Made by a program: the position numbers and the translations under genes. A DNA stretch of 64,000 nt. It comes from an uncultured Alphaproteobacteria bacterium (GTDB lineage Bacteria; Pseudomonadota; Alphaproteobacteria; HIMB59). The notes below the pieces were generated by a model that worked only from the letters and a program-made list of their open reading frames with translations, made no database searches and was not told the origin of the DNA. The DNA lies in assembly GCA_902610175.1 (NCBI GenBank), contig CACLUR010000001.1:186001-250000 (forward strand). The letters are read 5' to 3'. Shown here one piece after another: positions 1 through 18,846 of the stretch. The first letter of the stretch is position 1; every line of letters starts with the position of its first letter.

Positions 1-356
1 TTTGCAGTCCTAATGACCAATGGAATGTTGATTTGACCATCTGACATATATCTAGTTTTAGCAATTTGATTTGCCACAATATCCCAACAAACAGCTAAAA
101 AATCTGAAAACATTATTTCTGCTATTGGTCTTAAGCCTGTCATTGCTGCGCCCATAGCTGCACCTAAAATCGCCTGTTCTGAAATTGGTGCATCCATAAC
201 TCTCTCTTTACCAAACTCCTCTAAAAGACCAACCGTCGCTTTAAATACTCCACCCGCAGCACCTACGTCTTCGCCTATAAAAAAAACTTTTTGATCTTTT
301 CTCATGGATTGAGCTATAGCAAGTGAAACACTTGCTCTGTATGTTAATTGTGCCAC
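1..356 (-). CDS. 2-oxoacid/acetoin dehydrogenase E1 component, beta subunit (partial, runs off left edge)
   Basis: This is the N-terminal 118 residues of the beta subunit of a thiamine-diphosphate dehydrogenase (pyruvate or acetoin dehydrogenase E1 beta family). The subunit pairs with the E1 alpha encoded just upstream to decarboxylate a 2-oxo substrate. Visible family features are an early GEDVG segment (about residues 28-32), the ERVMDAPISE segment (about 51-60) and the following glycine/alanine-rich helix. The start I read is GTG at 356, inside the end of E1 alpha (13-base overlap), which implies translational coupling. The C-terminal half and any E2/E3 partner lie outside the window, so the substrate (pyruvate, acetoin or a branched-chain oxoacid) cannot be fixed. 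Confidence 0.9.
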   Translation of the reverse strand, partial: MAQLTYRASVSLAIAQSMRKDQKVFFIGEDVGAAGGVFKATVGLLEEFGKERVMDAPISEQAILGAAMGAAMTGLRPIAEIMFSDFLAVCWDIVANQIAKTRYMSDGQINIPLVIRTA

Positions 357-1348
357 TCAGAACCTCCATTAGCCCATACATCAGTATATATTTCTTTAAT
401 TTCTGGAATTGGAGAAGCCATGGAAATTTCAGTTGCTTTTTCAACTTGATCTTTAATTTTCTCCTCAATTTCAGAAATTATTTTTTCATTGATATTAAAA
501 TCTAATAACTTTGCTCTGTAATTTTTTATTGGGTCTTTGTTTTCCATCCAATCTTTTACTTCCTCATCAGGCCTGTACTTACCTGGGTCAGCTCTTGAAT
601 GCCCACTATGTCGATAAGTCTTGGCTTCAATTAAACTTGGACCTTTACCCTCTCTTGCTTTTGAGATAGCTTTTTCTGCTATCCTTAACATTTCATCAGC
701 ATCATTTCCGTCCACAATAACTCTGTCTAAATCGTAAGCACTTGCTCTATCAGCAGCTGGGTGCTCAACAGCAGTAACTTCATGAATTGGTGTGTATTCC
801 ATGTATAAATTATTTTCGCAAACAAACACTATGGGTAAATTCCAAATTTTTGCCATGTTCAGTGCTTCATGGAATGCTCCGATGTTTGTAGTACCATCTC
901 CAAAAAAGCAAACACTTACCTCATTTGTTTTATTATATTTTGATGCTAAGGCAGTTCCATTGGCTATAGTTAAATGAGCACCTATAATAGCATATGAACC
1001 CATAACTCCCTTATCTACATCTGTAAGATGCATTGATCCTCCTTTACCTTTCATCAAGCCACACTGTCTACCCATTAATTCTCCTAAGACTCCCTCGATT
1101 GAAGATCCTCTTGCGAGTGTATGTGCGTGCCCACGATATGTGCAAAATGTGTAATCACCCTGTTTCAGGGCGACACCGAAAGCACCTGCAATAGCTTCCT
1201 GACCGAGAGCTAAATGGCTAGTGCCCTTAATAAGGTTTTGAAGAAAAAGATCATATGCTTTTTTTTCGACTAGCCTTAATTTTAGCATCATCTCCCATAA
1301 TTGAAGTCTTTTCTTCTCTCCTATATCGTCATTTAATTTATCTACCAT
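344..1348 (-). CDS. 2-oxoacid/acetoin dehydrogenase E1 component, alpha subunit
   Basis: A 334-residue E1 alpha subunit of the pyruvate/acetoin dehydrogenase family. The thiamine-diphosphate motif is clear: GDG at about residues 150-152 followed by ENN at about 178-180. A phosphorylation-loop-like SxHxRxDPGKYR segment lies near residue 253. The length matches free-standing E1 alpha subunits. The gene starts with an ATG that overlaps the stop of the upstream M24 gene (TAATG), and it overlaps E1 beta downstream, so SDR, M24, E1 alpha and E1 beta form one tight leftward unit. Placement behind a catabolic SDR and hydrolase, rather than next to E2/lipoyl genes, suggests a dedicated catabolic dehydrogenase; acetoin-type or pyruvate-type is undecided. 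Confidence 0.88.
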   Translation of the reverse strand: MVDKLNDDIGEKKRLQLWEMMLKLRLVEKKAYDLFLQNLIKGTSHLALGQEAIAGAFGVALKQGDYTFCTYRGHAHTLARGSSIEGVLGELMGRQCGLMKGKGGSMHLTDVDKGVMGSYAIIGAHLTIANGTALASKYNKTNEVSVCFFGDGTTNIGAFHEALNMAKIWNLPIVFVCENNLYMEYTPIHEVTAVEHPAADRASAYDLDRVIVDGNDADEMLRIAEKAISKAREGKGPSLIEAKTYRHSGHSRADPGKYRPDEEVKDWMENKDPIKNYRAKLLDFNINEKIISEIEEKIKDQVEKATEISMASPIPEIKEIYTDVWANGGSEWHN

Positions 1349-2637
1349 TAATATTTATTAGCAATAGGTAGATCTTCAGCAGGGAACAAGGAAATTACTT
1401 GGCATCCTTTATCAGTAACAATTAATTCTTCTTCAATTCGCGCAGCAGAATAACCATCTTTTGCAGGACAATAGGTTTCAAGAGCAAAAACCATTCCTTC
1501 TTTAATTTCATCAGGTGAGTCCATTGAAACCAATCTACTGATTATTGGTCTTTCATGAATTGCCAAACCTAAACCATGTCCAAACTGTAATGCGAATGCT
1601 GACATTTCATTTGCAAAACCAAATTCCTCAGCCTTCGGCCATACTGATGCAATTTTATCTGTAGATACTCCAGGTTTTACAAGTTCAATGGCTTTGTCTA
1701 GCCACTCTCGACACTGCTTGTAGGCATCATTTTGAGAGTCTGATGCCCGTCCAATATTGAAGGTTCTATAATAACAGGTCCTGTAGCCCATATAAGATTG
1801 AAGTATGTCAAAGAAAGCTTGATCACCAGGTCTAAAAATTCTATCTGTAAAATTATGTGGATGCGGATTACATCTTTCACCTGAAATGGCATTTATTGCC
1901 TCGACATCATCTGAACCAAGTTCGTATAAAAGCTTATTTGCATTAGCAACTATTTGGGCTTCACTAACGCCTGGCTTCATAGTCTCATAAATTTGATGAT
2001 AAGTTGCATCAACCATCGATGCAGCCTGGTTTAATAACATTAGCTCATCTCTTGATTTTATTTCCCTGGCTTCAAGAAGAATTTGCTGTCCATCAATTAT
2101 CTCTAAACCCTCTGCTTGAAGAGCAAACATCATTGCTGGTTCAACAAGATCCACACCTACGGGCTCATTTGCTAATCCCCTCTCATTTAACATTGATTTT
2201 ATTTCTTTTGCAGCATTTTTCATTAATCCTGCATCAGGATGAACTGTACCCCTCAAGCCTACCATCCCTGCCTTCCAATTTTCTTTTGGAAGCCAAGGCG
2301 AAAATAATTGGTGATGTTTAGCCGCTGAACCGAAATCCCACAGCACGGGATCATGGTCTTGAGCTAATAGAGAATATCTACATATTTTGTCTCTTGACCA
2401 CTCTCCAATAACTGTGCTTGTGAGATATCGGATGTTGTTGTTATCAAAACAAAGGAGTGAACCGGCTTTTGAATTTTTCAGAGCCTCTCTGGCTCTTCCT
2501 AGTCGATATTTGTGAAGTCTAGGAAAATTAATTCTCTCTTCATAATCTACATTTGTCCTTCCATGAGAAGGTACTCTTCTATGCCAATCGTAATTTGGAT
2601 TAATATCTTCGGGTTTTATGATTGAAGGTTCGCTCAT
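1348..2637 (-). CDS. M24 family (creatinase/aminopeptidase P fold) hydrolase with altered metal site
   Basis: A 429-residue protein with an N-terminal creatinase-type domain and a C-terminal pita-bread fold (about residues 185-415). Known members of this superfamily include Xaa-Pro peptidases, creatinase, ectoine hydrolase and the DMSP lyase DddP. The usual five metal ligands line up as Asp277, Cys288 (normally Asp, 11 residues later), His354, Glu387 and Glu402, so one canonical ligand is replaced by Cys. That makes an ordinary dipeptidase less certain and a specialised C-N or C-S/C-O bond enzyme possible. The gene lies immediately after the SDR (adjacent bases) and overlaps E1 alpha by one base. 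The substrate is not recognisable from sequence alone. Confidence 0.8.
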   Translation of the reverse strand: MSEPSIIKPEDINPNYDWHRRVPSHGRTNVDYEERINFPRLHKYRLGRAREALKNSKAGSLLCFDNNNIRYLTSTVIGEWSRDKICRYSLLAQDHDPVLWDFGSAAKHHQLFSPWLPKENWKAGMVGLRGTVHPDAGLMKNAAKEIKSMLNERGLANEPVGVDLVEPAMMFALQAEGLEIIDGQQILLEAREIKSRDELMLLNQAASMVDATYHQIYETMKPGVSEAQIVANANKLLYELGSDDVEAINAISGERCNPHPHNFTDRIFRPGDQAFFDILQSYMGYRTCYYRTFNIGRASDSQNDAYKQCREWLDKAIELVKPGVSTDKIASVWPKAEEFGFANEMSAFALQFGHGLGLAIHERPIISRLVSMDSPDEIKEGMVFALETYCPAKDGYSAARIEEELIVTDKGCQVISLFPAEDLPIANKY

Positions 2638-3441
2638 TTATTGAATTACCATCCCACCATCAATCATGAGTATTTGTCCTGTCATGTAATCAGACTCACT
2701 AGACGCTAAAAATGATGCTGTGCCCACTACGTCTTCAGGATAGGAATACCTCTTCATCAAAATCATATTCTCTGCAATTGAGTCCATTGATTCTCCGGGT
2801 TTGTCAAATTTTCCAATTGCAACTAAATCTTTATCTAATTGCTCCCATAACTCTGTTCTAACTACGCCAGGGCCATATCCATTAACGGTAATGCCATGCT
2901 CAACTAAACTTTTTGCACCACCTTTTATTAAAGCAGCTATAGCATGTTTACTCATTCCATAAACCACAACATCATCAAAAGTTTCTCTGGATAAAATAGA
3001 AGCTACATGAATAATTTTGTAAGGTTCTTTTTGTTTACCTTGTTTAATCATTTGTCGGGCTTGTTCTTGCATACCTAAAAGAGCACCTCGAACATTTATA
3101 TCCATAATAAAATCATAATTTTCCTCAGTAATATCCATGAAGAAGAGTGGTTTGTTTACTCCAGCATTATTTATAGAAACATTTAGACTACCAAAATTTT
3201 CAACTGTTGCATTTACAGCAGCTACGTGATCTTCACGATTTCGCACGTCTACTTTACATGAAATAGCCTCACCTCCAGCTGACCTAATTCTCTCTTCAAC
3301 CTCTTTACAACCGTCAAGGTTGACATCTGTTAGACAAATTTTAGCTCCTTGGGCAGCAAAGTGCTCTCCTACCGCAGCGCCCATACCTTGAGCAGCGCCT
3401 GTAATAAGGACATTTTTCCCTTTTAGTCTCTCTTTATCCAT
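2638..3441 (-). CDS. Short-chain dehydrogenase/reductase (SDR)
   Basis: A classical 267-residue SDR, probably cytoplasmic, oxidising or reducing a hydroxyl group with NAD(P). The nucleotide-binding GAAQGMG motif lies at about residues 15-21, NNAG near 93, and the catalytic Tyr/Lys pair is in YGMSK. The C-terminus ends in the usual MTGQ...DGG segment. It is the first gene of a leftward unit (SDR, M24 hydrolase, E1 alpha, E1 beta) with its own promoter and an operator-like palindrome 54 bases upstream. The ATG has a GGAGGG ribosome site seven bases before it. It probably acts on a polyol or hydroxy acid taken up by the neighbouring importer, but the substrate is not identifiable. Confidence 0.88.
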   Translation of the reverse strand: MDKERLKGKNVLITGAAQGMGAAVGEHFAAQGAKICLTDVNLDGCKEVEERIRSAGGEAISCKVDVRNREDHVAAVNATVENFGSLNVSINNAGVNKPLFFMDITEENYDFIMDINVRGALLGMQEQARQMIKQGKQKEPYKIIHVASILSRETFDDVVVYGMSKHAIAALIKGGAKSLVEHGITVNGYGPGVVRTELWEQLDKDLVAIGKFDKPGESMDSIAENMILMKRYSYPEDVVGTASFLASSESDYMTGQILMIDGGMVIQ

Positions 3442-3494: not shown

Positions 3495-3511
3495 ATATTC
3501 AAAATGAATAT
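3495..3511. promoter_or_regulatory. Operator-like palindrome, copy A
   Basis: The 17-mer ATATTCAAAATGAATAT is an inverted repeat of ATATTCA separated by three bases. It lies just upstream of the promoter of the SDR-M24-E1 unit, centred about 46 bases before the predicted transcription start, a position typical of an activator. The same arms occur at 8290-8306 and nearly so at 11807-11823. Its last base touches the stop codon of the upstream permease gene. Confidence 0.65.
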
Positions 3512-4545
3512 TATCTACCTAAGGCCGATCTCTTTTTTTCCAGCAAAGATGTCTTTCGTTCATCAATTGTAGCAAGCAGACTTTTCCTAGCTTGCCGCGA
3601 GTCAAATACCCTAGACATAGTTTGAAAAACAATAACGATAACCAAAAGCACTGATGTGAATAATTGAACGAAATGGACCTGAAGTGCATAAAATACGAGA
3701 CCAGTATTTAAAAAATTAACTGTTAAAGCTCCGATAGCTGCTCCCAAAACACCACCCTTTCCTCCTAGTATGCTCACACCTCCAACAAAAGCTGCAACAG
3801 TTCCTGCTAAAAGAAGGTATTGCAGTCCTAAACCTTGAGCTGTCCCTGATTTCAAACCAATTACGGTTCCAGCAAAACCGGCACAAAAACCTGACAAGGC
3901 AAAGGCTATAATCATTGGGCGTCTTAAAGGTATACCTGCAGTGAGTGCTTCTTTTCTTGCTCCACCGATCGCATATATTTCTCTTCCATATTTTGTGTAA
4001 CGCATAAAAATTCCTACACAAATGAATATGAAGATAACCGTTAGGCTAGCAGGTGAAAAATACATTAAAACTTTAGTAGTAATAAAATCAGGAACTCTAA
4101 AATCTGTTAACATAACTGTTTTTTCTTCAGCAATTAATAAAGCCACACCTCTAAGCAACATTAGCGTACCAACTGTAATCACAATCGCTCTTATTCTTAT
4201 GAAAGCTATAACAAAACCTTGCGTTGCACCGATTAAAGTTGAAACTGAAAGTCCTATAATCATCGCTAATGGGGCGCCTAAGGGGTCTGTTAATTTTACA
4301 ACTATCACAGCGCATAGGGCTGCGTTGGACCCAATTGATAAATCAATTTCTCCAGCAATTATACAAATTGTTAATGCTAAACCTACAAGACCCAAGACTG
4401 CAAACCTTTCAAGAATAGCGAAACTAATATTGTGGCTAAAGAAAACTTCAATATTAATTGCAAAGAATACGTAAACACAAAATGATAATAAGATTGCAAA
4501 AGAGAGATCTACATCTTTTGTAATCTTTTTTATAAAATTTTCCAT
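3511..4545 (-). CDS. Sugar ABC transporter permease (RbsC type), second of pair
   Basis: A 344-residue integral membrane protein of the ribose/galactose-type permease family (BPD_transp_2). It has about eight to ten hydrophobic segments and the family hallmark GEIDLSIGS near residues 65-73. It is the last gene of a four-gene importer: binding protein 7181-8224, double ATPase 5582-7090, permease 4545-5585 and this permease, whose ATG overlaps the stop of the preceding gene. Two different permeases suggest a heterodimeric channel. A positively charged C-terminal tail of about 35 residues follows the last membrane segment. The sugar or polyol imported cannot be told from the permease. Confidence 0.9.
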   Translation of the reverse strand: MENFIKKITKDVDLSFAILLSFCVYVFFAINIEVFFSHNISFAILERFAVLGLVGLALTICIIAGEIDLSIGSNAALCAVIVVKLTDPLGAPLAMIIGLSVSTLIGATQGFVIAFIRIRAIVITVGTLMLLRGVALLIAEEKTVMLTDFRVPDFITTKVLMYFSPASLTVIFIFICVGIFMRYTKYGREIYAIGGARKEALTAGIPLRRPMIIAFALSGFCAGFAGTVIGLKSGTAQGLGLQYLLLAGTVAAFVGGVSILGGKGGVLGAAIGALTVNFLNTGLVFYALQVHFVQLFTSVLLVIVIVFQTMSRVFDSRQARKSLLATIDERKTSLLEKKRSALGR

Positions 4546-5585
4546 TATTCCTGAGCCCTACTTCCTTTAGCAAATAAACCAAAAACAATGATACTAAACA
4601 CGATCATTAAGCCCACACCAACTATTCTAGGTCCACTATTAAATCCTTGTAAAACCATCATATTATCAACCATAGCAATAAAAATTGCTCCCAAACTAGT
4701 TCTTAAAGTAGATCCATAACCACCCATTATTGAATTTCCACCAACCATGACAGTTGCTATAACGAGTATTGTCATATCACCTGATGATCCAAATTCTGCA
4801 GAAAAATAATTAGATTGAGCACTATCCATTTGAGCAACAAAAGCTACTGCAACAAATGCACAACAAACAGAACAGATTGTGAAAACAATTATCGCCATGG
4901 AAAAATTTTCATGGCCAGTGGCTTTTCCAGCAGCTTTGTTTGCTCCAACTAAATAAACTTTCCTTCCAAAATTTGTATGTCTTAAAACTATCTCAGCTGC
5001 AATGGCAATTAAAATAAAAGACCATGTGATACTTGGAAGACCCAAAAAAGAACCAGTTCCTAACCATTCTGCATCATGAGGTCTAGTAAAGTTTATTACA
5101 AGGTTATCACTCCACCATGCACCAATACCATATAGGATGCCTGCTCCACCTAATGTTACTACAATTGGGTTGCCTCCCATTCCAACAAAATATCCTTGTA
5201 TTACTCCACTTACGACACCTACTGCTAAAGCAGCTAATAGTGAAACTAAAAAGTTTCCTGCAAGATCCGGTGATCCAAAACCAGTAGCCATACCCATGGC
5301 AAACGTAACACCACAAATTGATGCTGTTTCTTTTAACGACAATAAAAAAAAATTTCCTGACAAAGTTACAAATGTAAGTCCTATAGCCATAATTCCATAT
5401 AGTGCTGCATCTCTGATAATTGCTTTAAAATTTGTTATTGTTAAATAATTTTCTGTGAAAAAAATTCCATATATAAACATCACTGCAAAAAGTGACAACA
5501 AAATAGCAAGAAGTGTGCGATCTTTATAGAATTGAAGAAATTTTGCAGAAAAAGGTAATTGATTATTTTCGATGATAGCACTCAT
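4545..5585 (-). CDS. Sugar ABC transporter permease (RbsC type), first of pair
   Basis: A 346-residue RbsC-family inner-membrane permease with about nine hydrophobic segments. The usual (A/G)-x-DLS-x-G hallmark is degenerate here (LSGNFFLLSLKE, near residues 75-86). That fits a specialised heterodimer in which this subunit and the 3511-4545 permease have diverged. Its start overlaps the ATPase stop by four bases and its stop overlaps the next permease start. Function as the partner channel of the 7181-8224 binding protein follows from operon position and family; the transported compound is unknown. Confidence 0.88.
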   Translation of the reverse strand: MSAIIENNQLPFSAKFLQFYKDRTLLAILLSLFAVMFIYGIFFTENYLTITNFKAIIRDAALYGIMAIGLTFVTLSGNFFLLSLKETASICGVTFAMGMATGFGSPDLAGNFLVSLLAALAVGVVSGVIQGYFVGMGGNPIVVTLGGAGILYGIGAWWSDNLVINFTRPHDAEWLGTGSFLGLPSITWSFILIAIAAEIVLRHTNFGRKVYLVGANKAAGKATGHENFSMAIIVFTICSVCCAFVAVAFVAQMDSAQSNYFSAEFGSSGDMTILVIATVMVGGNSIMGGYGSTLRTSLGAIFIAMVDNMMVLQGFNSGPRIVGVGLMIVFSIIVFGLFAKGSRAQE

Positions 5586-7090
5586 AGGTTTGTCTCGTTA
5601 AATGGGTCAGTAATCTCTTTAAGAATAAGAGGTGTTTTAATTTTTTCTAATCGGTGTTCATCAATCATCATTCCTCTATAAAATGTAATCACCCTGTCAG
5701 GAAGATATGTGATTTCTTGGATATCAGTAGAGGCAAAAATAATTGTAATTCCCCTTGCTGCTAATTCTCTCATTCTTTGATATATCTCTGATTTAGCACC
5801 AACATCAACACCTCTTGTCGGCTCATTCACAAGCAATACATCGGGCTTAATTGAAAGCCATTTTCCTAATGCTACTTTTTGTTGATTTCCGCCACTTAAA
5901 AGACCAGACTCATCGTGCATTCTTTTGACATCAATTAAGAACTCTTTTGCTAAATTTTTGGAATAATTATCCTCAGAACTGCCAAAGTTAAAACCATATT
6001 TTGATATAGCACCAAGTGCTGGGGAGGTTAAATTCTCAAATATTGGACGTCCAAGAAAAAGACCATCTTTTTTTCTATCGGAGGAGCAATATGCGATTTT
6101 TTTCTTTATAGCATGACTTGGTGATTTTGGTAAAAAAGTTTCACCGTTCAAAGTGAGTGAACCTGATCTAGATTGAAGTGCGCCTGCTATGGAGGCTAAT
6201 ACTTCACCTGCTCCACTACCAAGTTGCCCAGAGAGTCCAAGTATCTCTCCCTTGAAGGCTGAAAAACTAACCGGCTCTAAAACGCCATCAGGCCAAAGTT
6301 CTTTTACTTCTAATTTTGGATCATCACTTATATGGTCAGCTTTTGATGGGAACATATTTGCCAATTCTCTTCCAAGCATAATTTCAACTAGTTTATTTAC
6401 ATCAATATCTTTAGTTTCTTGAATACCTTGACTTACTCCATCTCTTAATATTGTTATTCTTTTTGTAATCTTAAAAATTTCGTCCAGTCTATGACTTACA
6501 TATATTATTGATTTACCATTTGCTGCAAGACGCTCAACCATTTCTAAAATTCTTCGACTCTCTGCTTCACCCAACGCAGCTGTAGGCTCATCTAAAATTA
6601 AAATTTTTGCTTCTCTCGAAATTAATCTAGCTACTTCTACCAAATGTTGTTCACCAACAGATAATAAATTTATTCTAGTAGTTGGGTCTACTTCAGTTAA
6701 TCCAACTTCATCAAGATATGGGCGTGCCATCTTTGCCAATGTATTAAGAGTGGCAAATTTTTTTACTTTAGCTCCAGTAAGAAAAATATTTTCTGCAACT
6801 GACATATTAGGAATCAAGCTTAATTCTTGTTGAGCAATAGCTATGCCAGACTCCTCTGCTTGTGAAGGCGTTTCAAATTTTACTTCTTTACCATTGATTT
6901 GATAGCTGCCTTTAAAACCTGGGTCAAATCCACTTATAATTTTTACAAGAGTTGATTTTCCTGCTCCATTTTCTCCAACTAGTCCCATAATTTCACCTTC
7001 ATTAATCTCAAAATTTGCCTCTTTTAGAGCCTGTATTGCACCAAAAGTCCTAGAAACTTTTGAAATTTTGAGAATTGGATTTGTGGACAT
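5582..7090 (-). CDS. Sugar ABC transporter ATP-binding protein with two ATPase domains (RbsA/MglA type)
   Basis: A 502-residue tandem ATPase that energises the first importer from the cytoplasmic side. Domain 1 has Walker A GENGAGKST (39-47), an LSVGEQ signature and Walker B LILDEPTAALG. Domain 2 has a degenerate Walker A (GQLGSGAGE), an LSGGNQQ signature and Walker B LLVNEPTRG, in which the usual Asp before the catalytic Glu is Asn (codon at 5825-5827). Degenerate second domains are common in this family, but the Asn is less usual. The gene lies 90 bases behind the binding-protein gene with a stem-loop between them, and overlaps the first permease. Confidence 0.93.
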   Translation of the reverse strand: MSTNPILKISKVSRTFGAIQALKEANFEINEGEIMGLVGENGAGKSTLVKIISGFDPGFKGSYQINGKEVKFETPSQAEESGIAIAQQELSLIPNMSVAENIFLTGAKVKKFATLNTLAKMARPYLDEVGLTEVDPTTRINLLSVGEQHLVEVARLISREAKILILDEPTAALGEAESRRILEMVERLAANGKSIIYVSHRLDEIFKITKRITILRDGVSQGIQETKDIDVNKLVEIMLGRELANMFPSKADHISDDPKLEVKELWPDGVLEPVSFSAFKGEILGLSGQLGSGAGEVLASIAGALQSRSGSLTLNGETFLPKSPSHAIKKKIAYCSSDRKKDGLFLGRPIFENLTSPALGAISKYGFNFGSSEDNYSKNLAKEFLIDVKRMHDESGLLSGGNQQKVALGKWLSIKPDVLLVNEPTRGVDVGAKSEIYQRMRELAARGITIIFASTDIQEITYLPDRVITFYRGMMIDEHRLEKIKTPLILKEITDPFNETNL

Positions 7091-7180: not shown

Positions 7181-8224
7181 TTAGTCCCAAGCACCTGAGC
7201 AAAGCTCGTTGATGCCATATAACTTACCATCAAAGCCTCTAAGTGCTGTAAAGTCCATAGTGGCACCAGTCACTGAAGGGTTAGGCGTAAAGTTAATGTA
7301 GTTTGCTAGCTTACCGTTCTCCATGTACTCTTTAACAAGAGCTATAGCTAATTGACCTTCATGAAGAGGTGATTGTAGAGTAGTACCAAATTGCTTTCCA
7401 TCAGTAATCATCTGCTTATCACCGTTACACACAGTACCAACTGTAATGACAGCATCACTATCTACACTGCCACTTTTACCAGTACCTGCATACCAGTCAA
7501 CATTATAACCAGCTTCTTCTAAAGCCTTAATACCACCAGTTAAGATCGCGTCGTCCATACCATATACAAAATGAATTCCCTGATCTTTAACTTTAGCTAT
7601 TAGCTTAGCTGCTCCTTTATAACCGTTAGCCTGTCCAAATCCCTCACCGATGTCACCGATAAGATTTAAGTCAGTTCCAGCGATAGCTTGTTTGAAAGCA
7701 TTTATTGATAAGCCATATCCACCGTAAGAATGAGGATATGATAATGCAATTACATTATATCCATCTCCACCAGCAGCTTGTTTCATCTTCATAGCTTTAA
7801 CCATCATCTCACCTGCGTTGTAAGCGCGAAGACTATCATCTGGTCCGGCATATCCAAAGATGAATGCTTTATCTTGCTCATTAGGTAACTGATTGATTTT
7901 TAAAACTGGTACTCCAGTTTTAGCAAGCTTTCTTAACGAACCTAAACCTGCAACAGCATCAGGTGGCCACCAAATAAATACATCAGGTAGTGCGCCACTT
8001 GACAAGTATTGTTCTACTTGTTGGTTTTGCTCTGCTTGGTTATAGTTGTTTTCAAAAACAGTAATATCATAGCCATATTGCTCTGCTGTAGCTTTAATAC
8101 CTTTAACGAACGCACCAACATAAGCCTCAGATGATGCAGCGTTAAAAGAAACGATTTCAACTGCTTTAGCTGAACCGAAAGAAAAGCACATTAGAACAGC
8201 TAATACTTTTATTAGTTTGTTCAT
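7181..8224 (-). CDS. Periplasmic sugar-binding protein of ABC importer 1 (RbsB/Peripla_BP_4 family)
   Basis: A 347-residue solute-binding protein with a clear Sec signal peptide (Lys-rich start, hydrophobic core, cleavage probable after AKA near residue 21). The mature part follows the RbsB-like two-lobe pattern with an early substrate-cleft segment and a late GxxxxxxDF/ELCSGAWD tail. It is the first gene of the leftward importer operon, with an AGGAGG ribosome site before its ATG. It is divergent from the regulator at 8337, with two palindromes between them. Nearby dehydrogenases point to a sugar or polyol (inositol-like compounds are one possibility), but specificity is not readable. Confidence 0.92.
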   Translation of the reverse strand: MNKLIKVLAVLMCFSFGSAKAVEIVSFNAASSEAYVGAFVKGIKATAEQYGYDITVFENNYNQAEQNQQVEQYLSSGALPDVFIWWPPDAVAGLGSLRKLAKTGVPVLKINQLPNEQDKAFIFGYAGPDDSLRAYNAGEMMVKAMKMKQAAGGDGYNVIALSYPHSYGGYGLSINAFKQAIAGTDLNLIGDIGEGFGQANGYKGAAKLIAKVKDQGIHFVYGMDDAILTGGIKALEEAGYNVDWYAGTGKSGSVDSDAVITVGTVCNGDKQMITDGKQFGTTLQSPLHEGQLAIALVKEYMENGKLANYINFTPNPSVTGATMDFTALRGFDGKLYGINELCSGAWD

Positions 8225-8271
8225 ATTGATCCTCCTAATATCCTTATCTTGAAATTATCCACGATTTATTA

Positions 8272-8286
8272 AGAGATTTAATCTCT
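8272..8286. promoter_or_regulatory. Second perfect palindrome in the importer/regulator intergenic region
   Basis: AGAGATTTAATCTCT is a perfect 7-1-7 inverted repeat lying three bases from operator copy B. It sits where the -35 region of the leftward importer promoter would be (a GATAAT -10 candidate is at 8254-8259 on the minus strand). It may be a second protein-binding site or a short leader hairpin; I did not see this sequence elsewhere in the window. Confidence 0.4.
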
Positions 8287-8289
8287 AAT

Positions 8290-8306
8290 ATATTCAAATT
8301 GAATAT
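8290..8306. promoter_or_regulatory. Operator-like palindrome, copy B
   Basis: ATATTCAAATTGAATAT is a perfect 17-base palindrome (8-1-8). It lies between the divergent importer and regulator genes and overlaps the -35 box of the regulator promoter, which suggests autoregulation. For the importer it would lie about 50 bases upstream of the start, an activator-like place. The arms are the same as in copies A and C. Confidence 0.7.
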
Positions 8307-8328
8307 TTTAATGAATTTATAATATAAT
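8299..8328 (+). promoter_or_regulatory. Predicted promoter of the regulator gene
   Basis: A TTGAAT -35 box (8299-8304, inside operator B) and a TATAAT -10 box (8323-8328) are separated by 18 bases. The start would be at about 8334, three bases before the ATG at 8337, so the mRNA would be nearly leaderless. No ribosome site is visible before this ATG. Confidence 0.5.
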
Positions 8329-8336
8329 CCCCTCAA

Positions 8337-10022
8337 ATGAATAGAAACGAGATAATCACTCTTTTAAAATTCGTAGATAAAACGAGACTTTTATTTAACA
8401 GATCTATTTCAATTAAAACAATTGACGCTGATTGGAATATTTTTTCTTATGTCATCATCAACCATCTTGACAATAAAATTACCACTACTACGAGTATCAT
8501 ACAGGCATCAGGTTTGCCATTTGCAACTGGTTTGAGAAGAGTAAAAAAACTCATTCAAGAAAAAAAATTAATTCAAAGATCAAAAACTAAGTCAGGTAAA
8601 TCTTTCTCTATTCATCCAAGTAGTAATCTTATTATAGAATTCACAGATTATTTACTTTCTATCAAAAAAGAGGTGGCCTTGAACTTAGGTTACAGCGATT
8701 TTAATGACAATTATTTTTTTGGAACATCTTTATCCGCAGGAAATATTATACCTGCACCAAATGTTATAATTAATCAAAATAAAAAATATAAAAAAATTAA
8801 CTTTCTTGCCAATGATAATCCCACATTTAAAGTAATAAATAAGAATATTGATTTTTTTGAATATATACTTGATTGTGAAATTGAACTTACTATAGAAGGT
8901 GATTTGAATAAACTACTTAATGAAATAATTAAAAATTCCTCATCAAATAAAAAGTCAAAATTTGACATTGTTGCTTTTAATATTCCATGGATTGGACAGT
9001 TAACTAAATTAAATTGCCTTCTTCCTTTAAATAATTTTGTTAAAGATGTTGGGATAAATTTAAATGACTTTCACTATTCAGGAGTAAGGTCAAGTTCTTT
9101 TAATAAAAAACTTTATGGGATACCAATCGAGGCAATTCCTGATCTATTATTTTATAGAACAGATATTTTTCAAAAATATGCTTTGAGTCCACCAAAAACA
9201 TTTCAGGATTTACTCCATGCCTGTGAAGTATTAAAAGGTGACAAACAGATAGAAAGTCCTATTTCTTGGCCAGCTAAAAAAGGACAACCACTTGCTACTA
9301 GTTTTATATTAGCTATGGCAAATTATGGAAAACCATATGTAAACCTTAGGTACATTGGAAAAAATATTTATGATTTGGACGTAGGAAAAACACTTTTAAA
9401 GGCAAATTTTTTATCTGATGCATCTTTTGAGGCAGCAAAAATGTTGAAAAAATTGACAGCATACTCACCAAACAAGCTATCTGCTCATTCCAATGATGAA
9501 TGTGTTGAATATTATAGTCAGGGTAAATCAGCAATGGTAATGAATTGGAGTAGTAGAGCACATTTGTTTGAACTAAATGAGGCATCACCCGCATACAAGA
9601 AAACTGGTTATTTACCAAGACCTGCTGGAAATTCCTCTTTTCAAGTATCTCCAATAGGTGGGTTTTCGTTGGGTATACCTTCAAATATCTCTCCTGAAAA
9701 AATACCTTTTGTTATGAAAAATATTCGAAATTTTGTCTCTCCTGAGTTTATAAAATATTATATCGAACATGGCAGTTTATCATCTCCCGTTTTTAGTGTC
9801 GTTAATGATCCTGAAGTAAGAGCTCTAAGTCCAATATTTAATGAAATTGATAAAATGGAAAAGGAGGAAAAAATTATAGAGTGGGCAAGATATCCTCTAC
9901 CGACCTATTCAAATATTATTGAAGATGTTGGTCATAAAATTTATGAGTATATTTTTTTGAATAAGGATTTGGAAGCTACACTAAAAAGTTGTCAACAAAG
10001 TGCTCAAAAATATTTAAATTAA
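8337..10022 (+). CDS. One-component regulator: winged-helix DNA-binding domain fused to a cytoplasmic solute-binding-protein domain
   Basis: A 561-residue protein with no signal peptide. Residues about 32-95 look like a MarR-type winged helix (recognition helix near 60-76, basic wing KSGKSF near 85-90). From about 153 to the C-terminus the pattern is that of family-1 extracellular solute-binding proteins: FDIVAFNIPW near 209, LLPLNNF near 228, and YGIP...LLFYRTDIF near 260-278. The solute-binding fold would thus sense a sugar inside the cell. SgrR of enterobacteria is an established precedent, but it carries a family-5 (peptide-type) domain. The sensor differs in family from the RbsB-like binding protein encoded next door, so it is not a simple copy. 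The gene is divergent from importer 1 with operator B between them; it probably controls the three palindrome-bearing promoters. Confidence 0.8.
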   Translation: MNRNEIITLLKFVDKTRLLFNRSISIKTIDADWNIFSYVIINHLDNKITTTTSIIQASGLPFATGLRRVKKLIQEKKLIQRSKTKSGKSFSIHPSSNLIIEFTDYLLSIKKEVALNLGYSDFNDNYFFGTSLSAGNIIPAPNVIINQNKKYKKINFLANDNPTFKVINKNIDFFEYILDCEIELTIEGDLNKLLNEIIKNSSSNKKSKFDIVAFNIPWIGQLTKLNCLLPLNNFVKDVGINLNDFHYSGVRSSSFNKKLYGIPIEAIPDLLFYRTDIFQKYALSPPKTFQDLLHACEVLKGDKQIESPISWPAKKGQPLATSFILAMANYGKPYVNLRYIGKNIYDLDVGKTLLKANFLSDASFEAAKMLKKLTAYSPNKLSAHSNDECVEYYSQGKSAMVMNWSSRAHLFELNEASPAYKKTGYLPRPAGNSSFQVSPIGGFSLGIPSNISPEKIPFVMKNIRNFVSPEFIKYYIEHGSLSSPVFSVVNDPEVRALSPIFNEIDKMEKEEKIIEWARYPLPTYSNIIEDVGHKIYEYIFLNKDLEATLKSCQQSAQKYLN

Positions 10023-10023
10023 A

Positions 10024-10845
10024 TTATTTTATTTCCATTTTTTCTGCAGGCTGAGGTGGTGCAAAAGGATACCCTCCCCACACCGACTGATCAAAGTTTA
10101 CAACAGAACCTGTCATCATACCTGAGTCATCAGATGCTAAAAATGTTACTGCTTTAGCTACCTCCTTTGGATCAAGCAATCTTCCAAATGGTTGAGCTTT
10201 ACCAGCATCTTCTAGCCAATTTTCTGAGGCGCCATGATATTTTGTTTGAATCTCATGCTCTCCATCCGAAGCCATCCAACCAATATTTAATTGATTAACT
10301 CTTATTTTATTTTTTAATAATGCGAATGCTGTATTTCTAGTTAATGTTGCAAGAGCCCCCTTTGATACACAATAAGTTGATATGAATGGTTGGCCAGTCA
10401 TAGCTGCTACAGATCCAATATTAATTATTGAACCTTCTATGTTTTGTTCAATCATAATTTTCACAGTATCTTGAATTAAAAAATAAGGACCTTTTAAGTT
10501 GGTACCTATCATTTTATCGAATAATTCTTCGCTCGTATTAACAATATCTCCCCTATCAGTAATACCGGCAGCGTTAACAAGAACATCCAATCTCCCAAAT
10601 TCTTGTTTGGCAACTGAAACTGCATTTCTACACTCTTGGACCTCTCCTAGGTCTGTTTTTACAAAAATTACTTTACATCTAGTTTCATCTTGAATTTTTT
10701 TTGCTACCTCATTTCCTTTATCTTCTTTTCTACCAATTGTGACAACACCTTCAGCTCCGCTATCAGCAAAATTTTTTGCGATTGCTGCCCCTAGACCTTG
10801 TGTTCCTCCAGTCACTAGTGCAAACTTTCCCTTAATACTATTCAT
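10024..10845 (-). CDS. Short-chain dehydrogenase/reductase
   Basis: A 273-residue classical SDR. It has a TGGTQGLG nucleotide-binding loop at about residues 12-19, NAAG near 90, and a Ser (NIGSV) plus YCVSK catalytic set. The C-terminus carries the MTGSVVNFDQ segment usual for sugar/polyol SDRs such as gluconate 5-dehydrogenase-like enzymes. It overlaps the 3' end of the IolE-like gene by eight bases and is probably co-transcribed with it. It is convergent with the regulator gene with almost no gap. A role in oxidising or reducing an inositol- or hexonate-like intermediate is inferred from context. Confidence 0.85.
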   Translation of the reverse strand: MNSIKGKFALVTGGTQGLGAAIAKNFADSGAEGVVTIGRKEDKGNEVAKKIQDETRCKVIFVKTDLGEVQECRNAVSVAKQEFGRLDVLVNAAGITDRGDIVNTSEELFDKMIGTNLKGPYFLIQDTVKIMIEQNIEGSIINIGSVAAMTGQPFISTYCVSKGALATLTRNTAFALLKNKIRVNQLNIGWMASDGEHEIQTKYHGASENWLEDAGKAQPFGRLLDPKEVAKAVTFLASDDSGMMTGSVVNFDQSVWGGYPFAPPQPAEKMEIK

Positions 10846-11749
10846 CTCTATAATCCTCTATATCATATCCATACATACTTAAGCACTCTACAAGTTCTTT
10901 ATTTCCAATTTTAGCGTATTCAAATGGGTTTGCTTTGGCAGGATCTTGCTCTGCCTCGACAATGAACCATCCCTCGTAGTTATTATTTGATAATGTCTCA
11001 ACAACTTCCTTAAAATTAATATTTCCATCTCCAGGTACTGTGAAAGCCCCTTCTAACACAAAATCTAAAAAACTTTTTTTTGATCGATCTAAATCATTTA
11101 CAACCTTTGAACGAATGTCTTTAGCATGAAAGTGATTTATTCTTTTTGCATATTTATTTATTACTCTCAAAGAGTTGCCTCCTGCAAAGGTCATATGGCC
11201 TGTGTCAAATAAGATTTTTACTGCCTCACCTGTGTGGTTCATTAATTTATCAAGCTCATCCTCAGTCTCAATCGCTGTACCCATGTGATGATGAAATGAA
11301 ATTGGCACACCAAAATCTGCGCAAAATTCTGCAAATAATGTTAGTTTTCTTCCATACTCTCTAAAGTCCTCACTGTGTATTTTTCTTTTTGTGTTTAAAG
11401 GAGCATTTCTAATATTTTGGATAGTTCCAGATGTTTCTCCATATGCTAAAACTGCTGCGCCTAGGTCTCTGAAGAGAGTGAGTTGTTGAAGGACTTTATC
11501 TTTTTCATTTTCTAAGTCATTATCGAGCACAGTTCCTGAATACCACCCTGATGCCAGGTATAATTTGTGATTTTTTAAAATTGGACCAAGTTTTTCAGGA
11601 GTTTTTGGAAATTTTCCACCTGTTTCCACACCTGTAAATCCAGCAAGTTTTGACTCACTAAGGCAGGTATCTAAAGAAGTCTCTCCTCCAAGTTCAGGTA
11701 AATCATCATTGGACCATGCTATAGGTGCTATTCCCAATTTTGCTTTCAT
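10838..11749 (-). CDS. iolE: IolE-like sugar dehydratase/isomerase (xylose isomerase-like TIM barrel)
   Basis: A 303-residue TIM-barrel protein closely patterned on 2-keto-myo-inositol dehydratase (IolE). It shares the GIAPIAWSNDD start, an HHHMGT metal-site segment, FDTGH, and the VPGDG...EAEQDP ending characteristic of IolE. Family members use a divalent metal to dehydrate inosose. The gene is first in a leftward pair with the SDR, has an AGGAGG ribosome site and a TATAAT -10 box at 11769-11774, and is divergent from the IolG-like gene with operator copy C between them. IolD, IolB, IolC and IolA are absent from the window, so it may serve a variant pathway instead of complete inositol breakdown. 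Confidence 0.8.
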   Translation of the reverse strand: MKAKLGIAPIAWSNDDLPELGGETSLDTCLSESKLAGFTGVETGGKFPKTPEKLGPILKNHKLYLASGWYSGTVLDNDLENEKDKVLQQLTLFRDLGAAVLAYGETSGTIQNIRNAPLNTKRKIHSEDFREYGRKLTLFAEFCADFGVPISFHHHMGTAIETEDELDKLMNHTGEAVKILFDTGHMTFAGGNSLRVINKYAKRINHFHAKDIRSKVVNDLDRSKKSFLDFVLEGAFTVPGDGNINFKEVVETLSNNNYEGWFIVEAEQDPAKANPFEYAKIGNKELVECLSMYGYDIEDYRDE

Positions 11750-11806
11750 AAACCCCTCCTCAAGAAAGATTATAAATAAATAAACCTTTTAAAGAATACT
11801 TAAATT

Positions 11807-11823
11807 TTATTCAAAATGAATTT
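11807..11823. promoter_or_regulatory. Operator-like palindrome, copy C
   Basis: This site has the central 13 bases ATTCAAAATGAAT (11809-11821) identical to copy A, with two mismatches in the outer bases of the 17-mer. It lies in the 116-base gap between the divergent iolE-like and iolG-like genes. It is about 46 bases upstream of the start predicted for iolG (-10 TACTAT at 11849-11854) and about 53 upstream of the iolE start (-10 TATAAT at 11769-11774). Both promoters have poor -35 boxes, which fits activator dependence. Confidence 0.6.
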
Positions 11824-11865
11824 TTTTTTATTTTTTAAATTAAAAGAATACTATACTTCTGTGAT

Positions 11866-12870
11866 ATGAAAAAAGTCAGTATTGCAGTTATTGGGTGCGG
11901 GCGTATTGGCCAAATGCATGCTAAGAATATTCAACTTCATGAACAGACAAATTTAGTATGCATTTATGACCCAAATGAAGAATTTGCAAAAAAAGTATCA
12001 AATGATTTAAGCGTACTTGCTGTGAAAAGTGTTGACGATATTTTTAATAATAATGATATTGATGCTGTTCTTATATCTTCCCCAACAAATACACATATTG
12101 ATTTCATAGAAAGATCCGTTGCATCAAAGAAACCTGTTTTGTGTGAGAAACCTATTGACCTCGATATAAAAAAAGTAAATGAGTTTTCAAAAAGACTTGA
12201 AGGTAATAAAGTTCCAATACAATTAGGCTTTAATAGAAGATTTGATCCTGGTCATCAGGCTGCAAAAAAATCTTATATTGATGGTGAAATTGGTGAACTT
12301 CATCAATGTCTGATTACATCTAGAGATCCTGGTCTGCCGAGTTGGGATTATTTAAAAGTGTCTGGTGGGCAATTTAGAGATATGACAATTCATGATTTTG
12401 ATTTAGCCCGTTTTATGCTTGGTGAAGAGCCAGTTAAAGTATTTGCAATTTCTAATGCTTTAATAGATCCAAAAATAAAATCTGAATTAAATGATAGTGA
12501 CACCTTGATGATTATAATGGAAACAGCGTCGGGGAAACAATGTCACATAAACAACTCTAGATCAGCAACTTATGGATACGATCAAAGAGTTGAGTTGTTT
12601 GGAAGTAAAGGGATGGTTATATCTGAAAATAGAAAGCCACATGAATTGAAAAAATATAATTCAGAGTTTGTTGATAAGAGTGAGCCCTATTTAAATTTTT
12701 TTATTGAGAGATACCAAGAGTCTTATATGAATTCTATTAGCTCATTTGTCGAAACAATTTTGGAAAAAAAGCCTGTATCTGTTGGCTTTGAGGACGGAAG
12801 AAGAGCTCTTCTCTTAGCCGAAACTGCCTATAAATCTGTCAAAAGTGGGAGGATGGAAAATATTGATTAA
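11866..12870 (+). CDS. iolG: Inositol 2-dehydrogenase-like Gfo/Idh/MocA oxidoreductase
   Basis: A 334-residue two-domain NAD(P)-dependent oxidoreductase. The Rossmann motif GCGRIG lies at about residues 10-15, the EKP dinucleotide/catalytic motif near 92-94 (CEKPIDLD), and the C-terminal half has FRDMTIHDFD, with the His and Asp used in catalysis in this family, and NSR.ATYGYDQR, a segment typical of rhizobial inositol dehydrogenases. The expected reaction is myo-inositol (or a related cyclitol) to a ketone. It is divergent from the IolE-like dehydratase and followed by the aldolase gene 75 bases later. The mRNA appears almost leaderless. Substrate identity beyond a cyclitol is inferred. Confidence 0.82.
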   Translation: MKKVSIAVIGCGRIGQMHAKNIQLHEQTNLVCIYDPNEEFAKKVSNDLSVLAVKSVDDIFNNNDIDAVLISSPTNTHIDFIERSVASKKPVLCEKPIDLDIKKVNEFSKRLEGNKVPIQLGFNRRFDPGHQAAKKSYIDGEIGELHQCLITSRDPGLPSWDYLKVSGGQFRDMTIHDFDLARFMLGEEPVKVFAISNALIDPKIKSELNDSDTLMIIMETASGKQCHINNSRSATYGYDQRVELFGSKGMVISENRKPHELKKYNSEFVDKSEPYLNFFIERYQESYMNSISSFVETILEKKPVSVGFEDGRRALLLAETAYKSVKSGRMENID

Positions 12871-13776: not shown

Positions 13777-14568
13777 CTATACGGCCTCAAGCTCTTTTGC
13801 TAGATCACCTATTTGAGCGCCGCCAGCCATTAAACGCTTAACATCATCTCCGCCTAATTCTGATGACTTTCCAGATCCTATTACTTCACCCAAGCTTAAG
13901 AATGTAAATCGATCAGCTATTAGCCTGGCATGGATTTCATTGTGAGTAATCAAAATAATTGCGATATTCCCTAATTGTTGGACTTTTTTTATAGTCTTTA
14001 ATACTTCCATTTGTTGTTTTTGTCCAAGAGCTGATGTTGGCTCATCCAAGATTAATATTTTAGCTCCAAAGTATATCGCTCTAGCAATCGCCAAAGTTTG
14101 TCTCTGTCCTCCAGACATCGTACCTACTAACTGAGTCGGATCAGAGATATTTATTCCTATCTTGCCCATCTCAGCGATAGTAATTTCATTCATATTTTTA
14201 AAATCTAATATTCCAAGAGGTCCTGGGCCTTTTTTTAACTCATTACCCAAAAAAAAGTTTCTAGTAACCGATGTAAGTGCGTTCAATGCTAAATCTTGGT
14301 AAACAGTTCCTATGCCTGCGCTTGTAGCTTCTCTTGGGGATCCAAATTTCACTTCATTTCCATCAACTTTAATCACGCCAGATGTAGGTTTGTGAACACC
14401 TGATAAAACTTTTATTAGAGTTGATTTTCCGGCACCATTATCACCAAGAAGTGCGTGAACCTCTCCAGGCAAAACATTTAAGGAGACACCGTTCAGTGCT
14501 GTGAATGTACCAAACTTTTTAACTAAATTTGTAATCTCAATAAATGGGGCTTGATTATCTTGACTCAT
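13777..14568 (-). CDS. Sugar ABC transporter ATP-binding protein, single domain (FrcA type), importer 2
   Basis: A 263-residue single ATPase that would work as a homodimer under a homodimeric permease. Walker A is GDNGAGKST (about residues 42-50), the signature MSGGQRQ, Walker B LILDEPTSALG, and the switch His in LITHN. The gene begins with an ATG overlapping the permease stop (TAATG). Order in the operon is binding protein, permease, ATPase. FrcA-type transporters carry fructose, ribose or related monosaccharides; this one's substrate is not evident. Confidence 0.92.
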   Translation of the reverse strand: MSQDNQAPFIEITNLVKKFGTFTALNGVSLNVLPGEVHALLGDNGAGKSTLIKVLSGVHKPTSGVIKVDGNEVKFGSPREATSAGIGTVYQDLALNALTSVTRNFFLGNELKKGPGPLGILDFKNMNEITIAEMGKIGINISDPTQLVGTMSGGQRQTLAIARAIYFGAKILILDEPTSALGQKQQMEVLKTIKKVQQLGNIAIILITHNEIHARLIADRFTFLSLGEVIGSGKSSELGGDDVKRLMAGGAQIGDLAKELEAV

Positions 14569-16262: not shown

Positions 16263-17165
16263 CTATCTATCAATACCTGCTAAAGCAGCAACTGATGAAG
16301 CATTTGACTTGTCAACAAATCCTGGACCTGATGGAATGTTTGCACCAGGTAAAAGGCCAGCACCGTTGTTGTATAAGTGTAATACTACAACAGGCATATA
16401 ACCTTGTAGACGTTGCTGTTGGTCAATTGTGAAAGCAACTTTACCCTCATTGATTAAGTCCATAACAGGTGGGCTCAAGTCAAAACAAGAGTGGTGTACT
16501 GACATACCTAACTCATCGATAGCCTGTTGAACTCCAACACAAACGTGCGGACCAACTGATAATACTGCATCAACATCTGGGTTTGCTTGTAAACCAGCAG
16601 CAGCTCTTGTTGGGATAGTAGCAGGATCGTTTGAGCTATCTACTAATTCAGTAGGAATAGCTTCACCGTAACCACCACATCTATCTGTCAAAGCTGTGTT
16701 GTAAGCTTCTTGAATCATGCAAAGAGCTTTTGTAGCACCTTCAGCTTTTGCTCTTGCACCAGCAGATTGACCAGCAAGGTATTCAGGTTGACCAACGTGC
16801 ATTAGTGCACCAAGTGAAGCAGAAGACTCAAGACCTGAGTTCATTGTGATGACTGGAATACCAGCAGCAACAGCGTCTTTAATTGCTTGACCTAAAGCTT
16901 CAGGATCTGGAAGTGAAACTACCATTCCATCAGGCTGAGTTGCTGCAGCAGCAGCAATTGATTTTGCCATGTCACCCATGTCACCTGAAGGGTTGAAGAT
17001 ATATTCAAAATCTGCACCTACGTGTCTAGCAGCATCTTCACCACCTTTTTGCACAACAGGCCAGAAAGGATCTTTACCCTCACCGTGTGTTACCATTACA
17101 TATCTTTCAGCAAATGCAGAAAGAGATAAGAATGATACAAGAATTGTAAGAATTATTTTTCTCAT
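16263..17165 (-). CDS. Periplasmic sugar-binding protein of ABC importer 2
   Basis: A 300-residue RbsB-like solute-binding protein. The signal peptide covers about the first 18 residues (cleavage probable after AFA). The mature protein opens with a strand ending in THGEGKDPFWPVVQKG, the usual first cleft loop, and has paired Cys residues that may form disulfides. It is the first gene of importer 2, with an AGGAGG ribosome site and a good promoter at 17193-17221. The hairpin and U-run after it probably limit read-through into the permease. The substrate is unknown; neighbours suggest a monosaccharide or cyclitol. Confidence 0.92.
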   Translation of the reverse strand: MRKIILTILVSFLSLSAFAERYVMVTHGEGKDPFWPVVQKGGEDAARHVGADFEYIFNPSGDMGDMAKSIAAAAATQPDGMVVSLPDPEALGQAIKDAVAAGIPVITMNSGLESSASLGALMHVGQPEYLAGQSAGARAKAEGATKALCMIQEAYNTALTDRCGGYGEAIPTELVDSSNDPATIPTRAAAGLQANPDVDAVLSVGPHVCVGVQQAIDELGMSVHHSCFDLSPPVMDLINEGKVAFTIDQQQRLQGYMPVVVLHLYNNGAGLLPGANIPSGPGFVDKSNASSVAALAGIDR

Positions 17166-18764: not shown

Positions 18765-18846
18765 GTCTTATTACCTCCTACCTTACTAAATGTAATATAT
18801 AATAATTGATCAAGCCTAGAAAGGGGATATTCTTTATCTATTCACT

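Follow-up and report, generated by a model that had tools for sequence, protein, structure and literature searches.

A putative one-component regulator with a winged helix and a family-1 solute-binding domain beside inositol-type genes in marine Alphaproteobacteria

Can a binding protein of the kind that serves ABC transporters be kept inside the cell and used as the sensor of a transcriptional regulator? This question is raised by a gene on a stretch of 64,000 nucleotides (hereafter the window) from an uncultured alphaproteobacterium of the HIMB59 lineage (assembly GCA_902610175.1, contig CACLUR010000001.1, positions 186,001 to 250,000). The open reading frame starts with ATG, encodes 561 amino acids and lies exactly where an earlier note on this DNA had placed it (Table 1). 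That note had read the product as a one-component regulator, and the recurrence of the fusion in many genera, together with a conserved palindrome in the divergent promoter region, supports this reading. From sequence and predicted structure, we consider it likely that the protein is a DNA-binding, ligand-sensing cytoplasmic one-component regulator of the adjacent transporter and catabolic operons, the latter being here of the inositol type.

Table 1. Positions of genes, protein domains and candidate regulatory sites (window coordinates unless a locus or genome is named)
Feature	Position	Strand	Basis
Dehydrogenase E1 alpha	344..1348	-	
M24-family protein	1348..2637	-	
Short-chain dehydrogenase (SDR; acetoin reductase/2,3-butanediol dehydrogenase-like), first gene behind second operator candidate	2638..3441	-	
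Second operator candidate, ATATTCA-AAA-TGAATAT, upstream of SDR/M24/E1 operon	3495..3511	.	one mismatch to 17-mer
ABC permease	3511..4545	-	domain match
ABC permease	4545..5585	-	domain match
Sugar-type ABC transporter ATPase	5582..7090	-	domain match
RbsB-like substrate-binding protein, divergent from regulator	7181..8224	-	Peripla_BP_4, E 5.6e-25
Primary operator candidate, ATATTCA-AAT-TGAATAT, divergent promoter region (intergenic 8225-8336)	8290..8306	.	conservation
Regulator promoter-like site (TTGAAT, 18 nt, TATAAT), weak	8299..8328	+	-35 inside operator candidate
Fusion regulator gene, winged helix and family-1 solute-binding domain	8337..10022	+	ORF, Pfam, alignment, AlphaFold
DNA-binding domain, residues 1-108 (about)	8337..8660	+	family profile, Pfam of relatives, AlphaFold
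Recognition helix, residues about 62-74	8520-8558	+	
Linker, residues about 117-150, low pLDDT	8685..8786	+	alignment, AlphaFold
Family-1 (MalE-like) solute-binding domain, residues 150-561, putative ligand sensor	8784..10019	+	Pfam, PDB profile, structure comparison
Short-chain dehydrogenase	10024..10845	-	domain match
IolE, myo-inosose-2 dehydratase	10838..11749	-	TIGR04379, 393 bits, cut-off 290
Third, weaker operator candidate, contains TATTCAAAATGAATT, between iolE and iolG	11807..11823	.	three mismatches to 17-mer
IolG, inositol 2-dehydrogenase	11866..12870	+	TIGR04380, 397.7 bits, cut-off 355
Probable inositol pathway	window 344-3441 and 10838-12870; L114 3829-6461; G000:C1:326265-328085		

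Domain layout and export signal

The C-terminal part of the protein is matched by SBP_bac_1 (residues 207-450, E 9.6e-19) and SBP_bac_8 (residues 189-492, E 8e-18); SBP_bac_1 is present in all 23 aligned members, and these two are the sole types of binding domain found there. No Pfam model matched the protein's own N-terminus, and the assignment of a winged helix therefore rests on its relatives and on structure. The NCBIfam MarR model TcaR matches residues 3-85 weakly (E 0.018). When 24 aligned N-domains (23 fusions and one stand-alone open reading frame) were scanned with Pfam at E values up to 0.1, MarR_2 matched 15 (best E 1.7e-5) and HTH_IclR and HTH_24 matched ten each, HTH_IclR giving the best single match overall (E 7.7e-9). 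At E values up to 0.01, a scan of whole proteins returned MarR_2 in six of the 23 members, the window protein not among them, and HTH_IclR in one. A search of the PDB with the N-domain profile found TubR (E 6e-5) and a MarR/SlyA protein (E 3.4e-4).

The winged helix proposed in the earlier note is also drawn by AlphaFold. The full-protein model contains helices at residues 31-44, 51-58, 62-74 and 96-116, the last being long, and a two-stranded wing (strands 78-82 and 90-94); block pLDDT is 86-90 over residues 31-80, falls to 65 over 81-90 and reaches 88 over 91-100. In most aligned rows the recognition-helix region reads P(Y/F)AT..R. Both domains named in the note are thus present, but they are not joined directly as it had stated, being separated by a stretch of about 35 residues (117-150) that is modelled poorly. 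This linker carries a family motif, YYFGGS..A..IIPPP in the majority consensus of aligned members, and both domains and the linker motif are conserved where the fusion recurs.

Stand-alone winged-helix open reading frames of about 146 amino acids, 44-51% identical, were found in two further genomes (L034 1495-1935 in G030, and G022:C5:17818-18213). They end in the linker region and resemble fusions cut short, with the DNA-binding part retained and the sensor gone. A third N-domain match (G018:C7) is located at a contig end.

Judged by the hydropathy of its first 45 residues, the fusion protein has no visible signal peptide, in agreement with the earlier note: its top 11-residue hydrophobic stretch scores 1.12, compared to 2.67 in the neighbouring RbsB-like protein. 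Two relatives (L066 and L067) score 2.25 and 2.46 on the same scale, and their stretch aligns with helix 31-44. The protein shares its SBP_bac_1 domain with family-1 solute-binding proteins but differs from them in having no visible signal peptide, which suggests that the binding domain is kept in the cytoplasm. Databases do annotate relatives as 'extracellular solute-binding protein', which would fit a normal exported binding protein whose N-terminus had been extended by chance or whose start had been misread. We consider this exceedingly improbable, because relatives down to 21% overall identity retain the N-domain and its motif and because no signal peptide is visible, unlike in three binding-protein paralogues of the same genome (L002-L004), which by eye start with a hydrophobic leader.

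The putative sensor domain, its neighbours and the candidate ligand

The best PDB relative of the window protein by phmmer is the trehalose/maltose-binding protein 1eu8 (TMBP, E 3.8e-16), and a profile of the 23 family C-domains matched 5iai (E 4.6e-52), which we take to hold ribitol, 1eu8 (E 9.1e-38) and the sorbitol-binding protein 4rya (E 3.5e-26). AlphaFold modelled the full protein with a mean pLDDT of 59 and the C-domain folded alone with 65 (pTM 0.59). In structure comparisons, the 50 matches listed for the full-protein model are binding proteins, and among the 50 listed for the C-domain model such proteins reached Z scores of 17-20. The C-domain model gave Z 20.1 with 5iai over 306 residues at an rmsd of 17.5; the high rmsd suggests that the lobes are poorly placed, and we therefore make no claims about the pocket from the model.

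The domain might work without any ligand, through contact with a protein such as the transporter or a catabolic enzyme. Consistent with this, the family residues at the TMBP ligand positions (as we presume them from the roles of these residues in TMBP) differ, and the transporter next to the regulator relies on a binding protein of RbsB type, which is unrelated. A mere contact surface, however, would not need the whole binding domain, which is kept in 23 of 23 members and includes a GG-aromatic motif, aligned with the GGW of TMBP, in 22 of the 23 rows (L076 has GGA), and we regard protein contact alone as unlikely. Under the preferred reading of a ligand sensor, the ligand is probably an imported polyol or cyclitol, here related to inositol, or a product of one, as suggested by the polyol-binding relatives and the iol genes; such a ligand fits the locus better than a sugar.

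That the adjacent ABC system employs an RbsB-like protein of another family, as the earlier note had it, agrees with the Peripla_BP_4 match. Beyond the E1 alpha gene and outside the window, the same strand continues with genes for E1 beta, a lipoyl piece, SSADH, a Gfo/Idh protein, an IolC-like kinase, a KduI/IolB family protein, a class II aldolase and an aldose epimerase, which we infer to form one operon with the SDR, M24 and E1 genes. The IolC-like kinase scores 297.7 bits with TIGR04382, just below the cut-off of 300. A protein above the cut-off of the IolD family (754 bits, cut-off 715) is encoded elsewhere in the genome, and a protein passing this cut-off occurs in eight of the nine genomes searched; among control genomes the family matched in 14 and passed the cut-off in three. 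The idea that the E1 and M24 proteins replace IolD was dropped, since the genome has this protein. Given IolE and IolG in the window, the IolC-like, KduI/IolB family and aldolase genes beyond it and IolD elsewhere, the inositol catabolic pathway is probably complete in this genome. Inositol is nowhere mentioned by that word in the main text of the paper on AEGEAN-169 genomes (PMC10308909).

Several further features of the window and its surroundings deserve mention. The M24 protein distantly matches the DddP model (113 bits, cut-off 600) and adjoins the pyruvate-dehydrogenase-like E1 subunits and SSADH, a gene set common to Roseobacter-type loci. A BPD_transp_2 permease at 14568-16157 is unusually long (529 amino acids, two matched stretches), and the binding protein beside it (16263-17165) matches the rhizopine model with 237 bits (cut-off 420). 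Transketolase is split into two adjacent genes for its N and C parts (18847-20608), and a one-mismatch palindrome at 18839 spans the start of the first.

A candidate operator in the divergent promoter region

An inverted repeat lies between the divergent genes of the RbsB-like protein and the regulator. In five divergent sequences, the window included (counted from an alignment of 11 rows), 16 of its 17 columns are invariant, compared to 26 of 95 elsewhere in the intergenic region, the sole variable column being the A/T centre. The exact motif occurs only two to three times per genome in the window's own genome and eight relatives, and one copy is always found between the two genes. This conservation makes the palindrome the likely DNA target of the fusion protein. 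Across the whole genome, nine sites lie within two mismatches versus two for the reversed pattern; when three mismatches are allowed, the window shows no enrichment of the 17-mer (4 sites against 2.42 expected).

The second site, between permease and SDR genes, recurs in six loci (L037, L051, L052, L053, L056 and L093), the L056 version, TATCCATTTTGAATA, being of the TATCCA type. The third, between iolE and iolG, recurs in the first five of these and is absent in L093. Locus L050 is rearranged, with the site kept beside its SDR gene; here two paralogous fusions (410-2110 and 8001-9695, about 41% identical) flank the same transporter operon, and an exact copy of the palindrome stands upstream of each (294 and 7949). 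Two candidates were rejected. Another intergenic palindrome, AGAGATT/AATCTCT at 8272-8286, is not conserved in more distant relatives. A regulon beyond the locus was also set aside. The third exact copy, which recurs in other contigs of the genomes searched, was judged a probable chance occurrence; in the four contigs fetched (L111-L113 and L115) it sits at the same junction of two genes, where it overlaps the start codon of the second, as read in L111.

Roseobacter-type loci carry TATCCA-NNN-TGGATA in place of TATTCA-NNN-TGAATA, and the motif was widened to TATYCA-NNN-TGRATA from the Roseobacters L061, L062 and L065. Within 350 bp upstream of the regulator gene, 12 of 23 members (the window's genus and L060-L065) have a site at two mismatches or fewer, and mononucleotide shuffling gave one as good in 0-5 of 200 trials. 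In the same 350 bp, the remaining 11 (L066-L076) show either no site or sites with three mismatches that 33-41 of 200 shuffles equal. Six freshly fetched loci yielded six sites at one mismatch or fewer, in four of the six loci, and 179 palindromes with permuted half-sites gave a mean of 0.26 and a maximum of 4, none producing as many. Each of the six sites is flanked by the matched part of the binding-protein gene on one side and that of the regulator gene on the other; loci L106 and L110 have none at this threshold. These loci are new but not evolutionarily independent, since four of the six are of Roseobacter type and related to those used for widening the motif; L109, which is from outside the class, holds two of the sites.

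Weaker results came from two more sets, scanned before but without a part in deriving the motif: 13 loci, rhizobial and other, contained four sites (3 of 179 permuted motifs gave as many) and four further loci contained seven (1 of 179). In 29 chosen intergenic regions, counted without a chance control and taken in rhizobial loci before the gene ahead of the regulator, a site lies within two mismatches in 26 and within one in 19, and L072, L074 and L076 have none within two. Scanning whole loci at one mismatch or fewer left 10 of 31 sequences without a site (L063, L069, L070, L072-L076, L090 and L092), and some matches fell at unrelated places. The motif is thus weak or missing in many rhizobial members, and where rhizobial loci have a better site it precedes the gene that stands ahead of the regulator or is found at another place in the locus. 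Two of them (L067 at 5836 and L070 at 5828) contain a perfect variant palindrome, TATCCG-AAA-CGGATA, hinting at an operator that drifts together with its regulator. Of 19 site pairs, nine have a spacing of exactly 21 bp, and these come from nine loci of Roseobacter type or G593; the next commonest spacing has two pairs.

A link between the recognition-helix motif and the operator was considered and found not to be clean. Members with PYST, PHAT and PRTS (L072, L074 and L076) have no sites, yet the site accompanies TYGT in L060, SYGT in L068 and PRAT in the L050 paralogue, and is missing from L075, which has PYAT.

The palindrome could belong to another regulator, with the fusion protein binding elsewhere, and the many members without it next to the regulator gene would fit this explanation. 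It is nevertheless quite improbable to us, as the palindrome adjoins the regulator gene both in the window's genus and in Roseobacter-type loci, and as no other DNA-binding regulator is annotated within 7 kb on either side in L060-L065, apart from transposon and recombinase genes in L060.

Taking the palindrome as the target of the fusion protein, the MarR/IclR-like winged helix would bind the TATTCA-NNN-TGAATA inverted repeat, presumably as a dimer, and the complete family-1 periplasmic-type domain would sense the imported polyol or cyclitol, or its product, in the cytoplasm. In the simplest mechanism, the protein without ligand would repress three targets, namely the transporter promoter on the divergent side, the promoter of its own gene and the operon that follows the second site; ligand binding would close the lobes, change the geometry of the dimer and release the DNA. 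We moderately favour such a repressor, because the operator is divergent and self-adjacent and contains a -35-like element, an overlap that weakly suggests occlusion given that promoter-like sites in 8100-8420 are only slightly above chance (3 found, 1.6 expected). MarR-type proteins, moreover, are mostly repressors. A smaller but appreciable likelihood goes to an activator that differs in sign only: with the same architecture, its ligand-bound form would activate transporter and catabolic operons, like SgrR on sgrS. The paired sites of Roseobacter-type loci, with their 21 bp spacing, would be suitable for an array of activators bound upstream. SgrR has the most similar architecture among characterised regulators and is an activator of its targets (PMC4021124), yet represses itself according to a preprint (PMC13060122).

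Distribution, related systems and meaning

Full-length relatives, 21-98% identical, were found in the window's genus, Roseobacters, Rhizobiaceae, Skermanella and Paraburkholderia. Within the genus, 28 of 52 genomes contain the fusion, counting fragments at contig ends, and the same search in 48 other genomes of the order gave binding-domain matches at most and no fusion. Regulator and RbsB-like protein occur together in 27 of the 52 genomes and are both missing from 23; each is found alone once (G049 and G041), in both cases at a contig end. A Fisher test of this co-occurrence takes no account of relatedness among the genomes or of their incompleteness. In an even draw of 387 genomes from the class, at least nine had full-length fusions, the window's genus contributing four; in one of 397 genomes from the phylum, at least seven did, one of which lies outside the class. 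These counts are lower bounds, since at most three candidates were scored per genome, and the draws overlap (G000 and G229 are in both); a tenth genome of the class (G152) matched over the binding domain only. Among plasmid records, 206 have a match, and in 34 of these the match extends over 80% or more of the protein, with identities of 22-34%, including Skermanella, Roseobacters, Rhizobiaceae, Aminobacter and Paraburkholderia. Of these 34 copies, 28 are annotated at the match: 26 as 'extracellular solute-binding protein', one as 'ABC-type sugar transport system, periplasmic component' and one as 'hypothetical protein'.

The neighbourhood is conserved as well. With unannotated loci labelled only by similarity to 40-odd reference proteins, parts of a sugar ABC transporter lie nearby in 24 of 29 loci outside the window's genus, and the five loci without them (L067, L070, L071, L073 and L090) have a dehydrogenase/YciI cluster in common. 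Roseobacter-type loci (L061-L065, L087-L089 and L105-L108) contain a similar set of SDR, M24, E1 alpha, E1 beta, lipoyl piece and SSADH genes. It seems slightly more probable than otherwise that these proteins constitute a coherent, undescribed family of Alphaproteobacteria, with outliers in other Pseudomonadota, in which MarR/IclR-like heads and a complete MalE-type receptor form ligand-released repressors, counted in databases as exported transporter components. An operator of the TATCCA-NNN-TGGATA type would be common to members from different genera; in Roseobacter-type loci it is often doubled at a spacing of 21 bp (two helical turns), which would set two dimers on the same face of the DNA. 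The ligands of the members, along with some operators, would have diversified with the transported substrate.

The use of a binding-protein fold as a cytoplasmic sensor is in principle already known from LacI, LysR and SgrR. LacI/GalR proteins likewise combine a DNA-binding head with a sugar-binding-protein fold used in the cytoplasm, but they have a different helix-turn-helix, and their type-I (RbsB-like) fold, which is part of the LacI regulator itself, is found here in the neighbouring transporter, whereas the fusion regulator has a MalE-like fold. LysR-type regulators also join a winged helix to a type-II binding-protein fold, with a sensor of about half the size. Neither the LacI helix-turn-helix and type-I binding fold nor HTH_1 and LysR_substrate matched the window protein or the members in Pfam. 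Members of the MarR family (PF12802, PF01047) are of winged-helix type, as predicted for the head of the fusion, and have a palindromic site in a divergent promoter region, as the candidate operator here would be; on their own they measure about 150 amino acids (140-180) and have a small ligand pocket near the dimer interface, whereas the fusion has 561, with a binding protein of 400 amino acids appended. Fusions of another helix-turn-helix, of the GntR type, to SBP_bac_1 are known from Firmicutes.

The precedent cited in the earlier note, SgrR with its family-5 domain, is borne out by the SgrR family (SgrR_N, PF12793, and SBP_bac_5), comprising E. coli SgrR and V. cholerae DsvR; the preprint describes DsvR as having an N-terminal helix-turn-helix and a C-terminal SBP_bac5 domain (PMC13060122). 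The layout is alike, but the binding domain of the fusion belongs to family 1/8, of sugar/polyol type. SgrR_N did not match the window protein and matched one of the 24 family N-domains at E 0.014, and SBP_bac_5 was not found in the 23 members scanned with Pfam. Complete periplasmic binding proteins have been fused to DNA-binding domains as engineered sensors, as reported for DBD-PBP chimeras (Juarez et al., 2018; PMC6079105). Those chimeras are synthetic, and the fusion described here appears to be a natural counterpart.

What appears to be new is that a MarR/IclR-like head is combined with a domain of family 1, an arrangement of which there was no example among the open-licence literature matches listed (titles and abstract starts), nor was any helix-turn-helix regulator with SBP_bac_1 described there. 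The fusion merits attention because it is present in many genera, is mislabelled and now comes with a predicted operator, which makes its reading as a regulator directly testable; many ligand-bound structures are available for the family of binding proteins it uses. If our reading is correct, the label 'extracellular solute-binding protein' hides a regulator and inflates counts of transporters, and a regulon of inositol-type uptake and catabolism is predicted for this marine lineage. The fusion would then represent a further natural route, beside those of LacI/LysR and SgrR, from a nutrient-binding protein to a gene switch.
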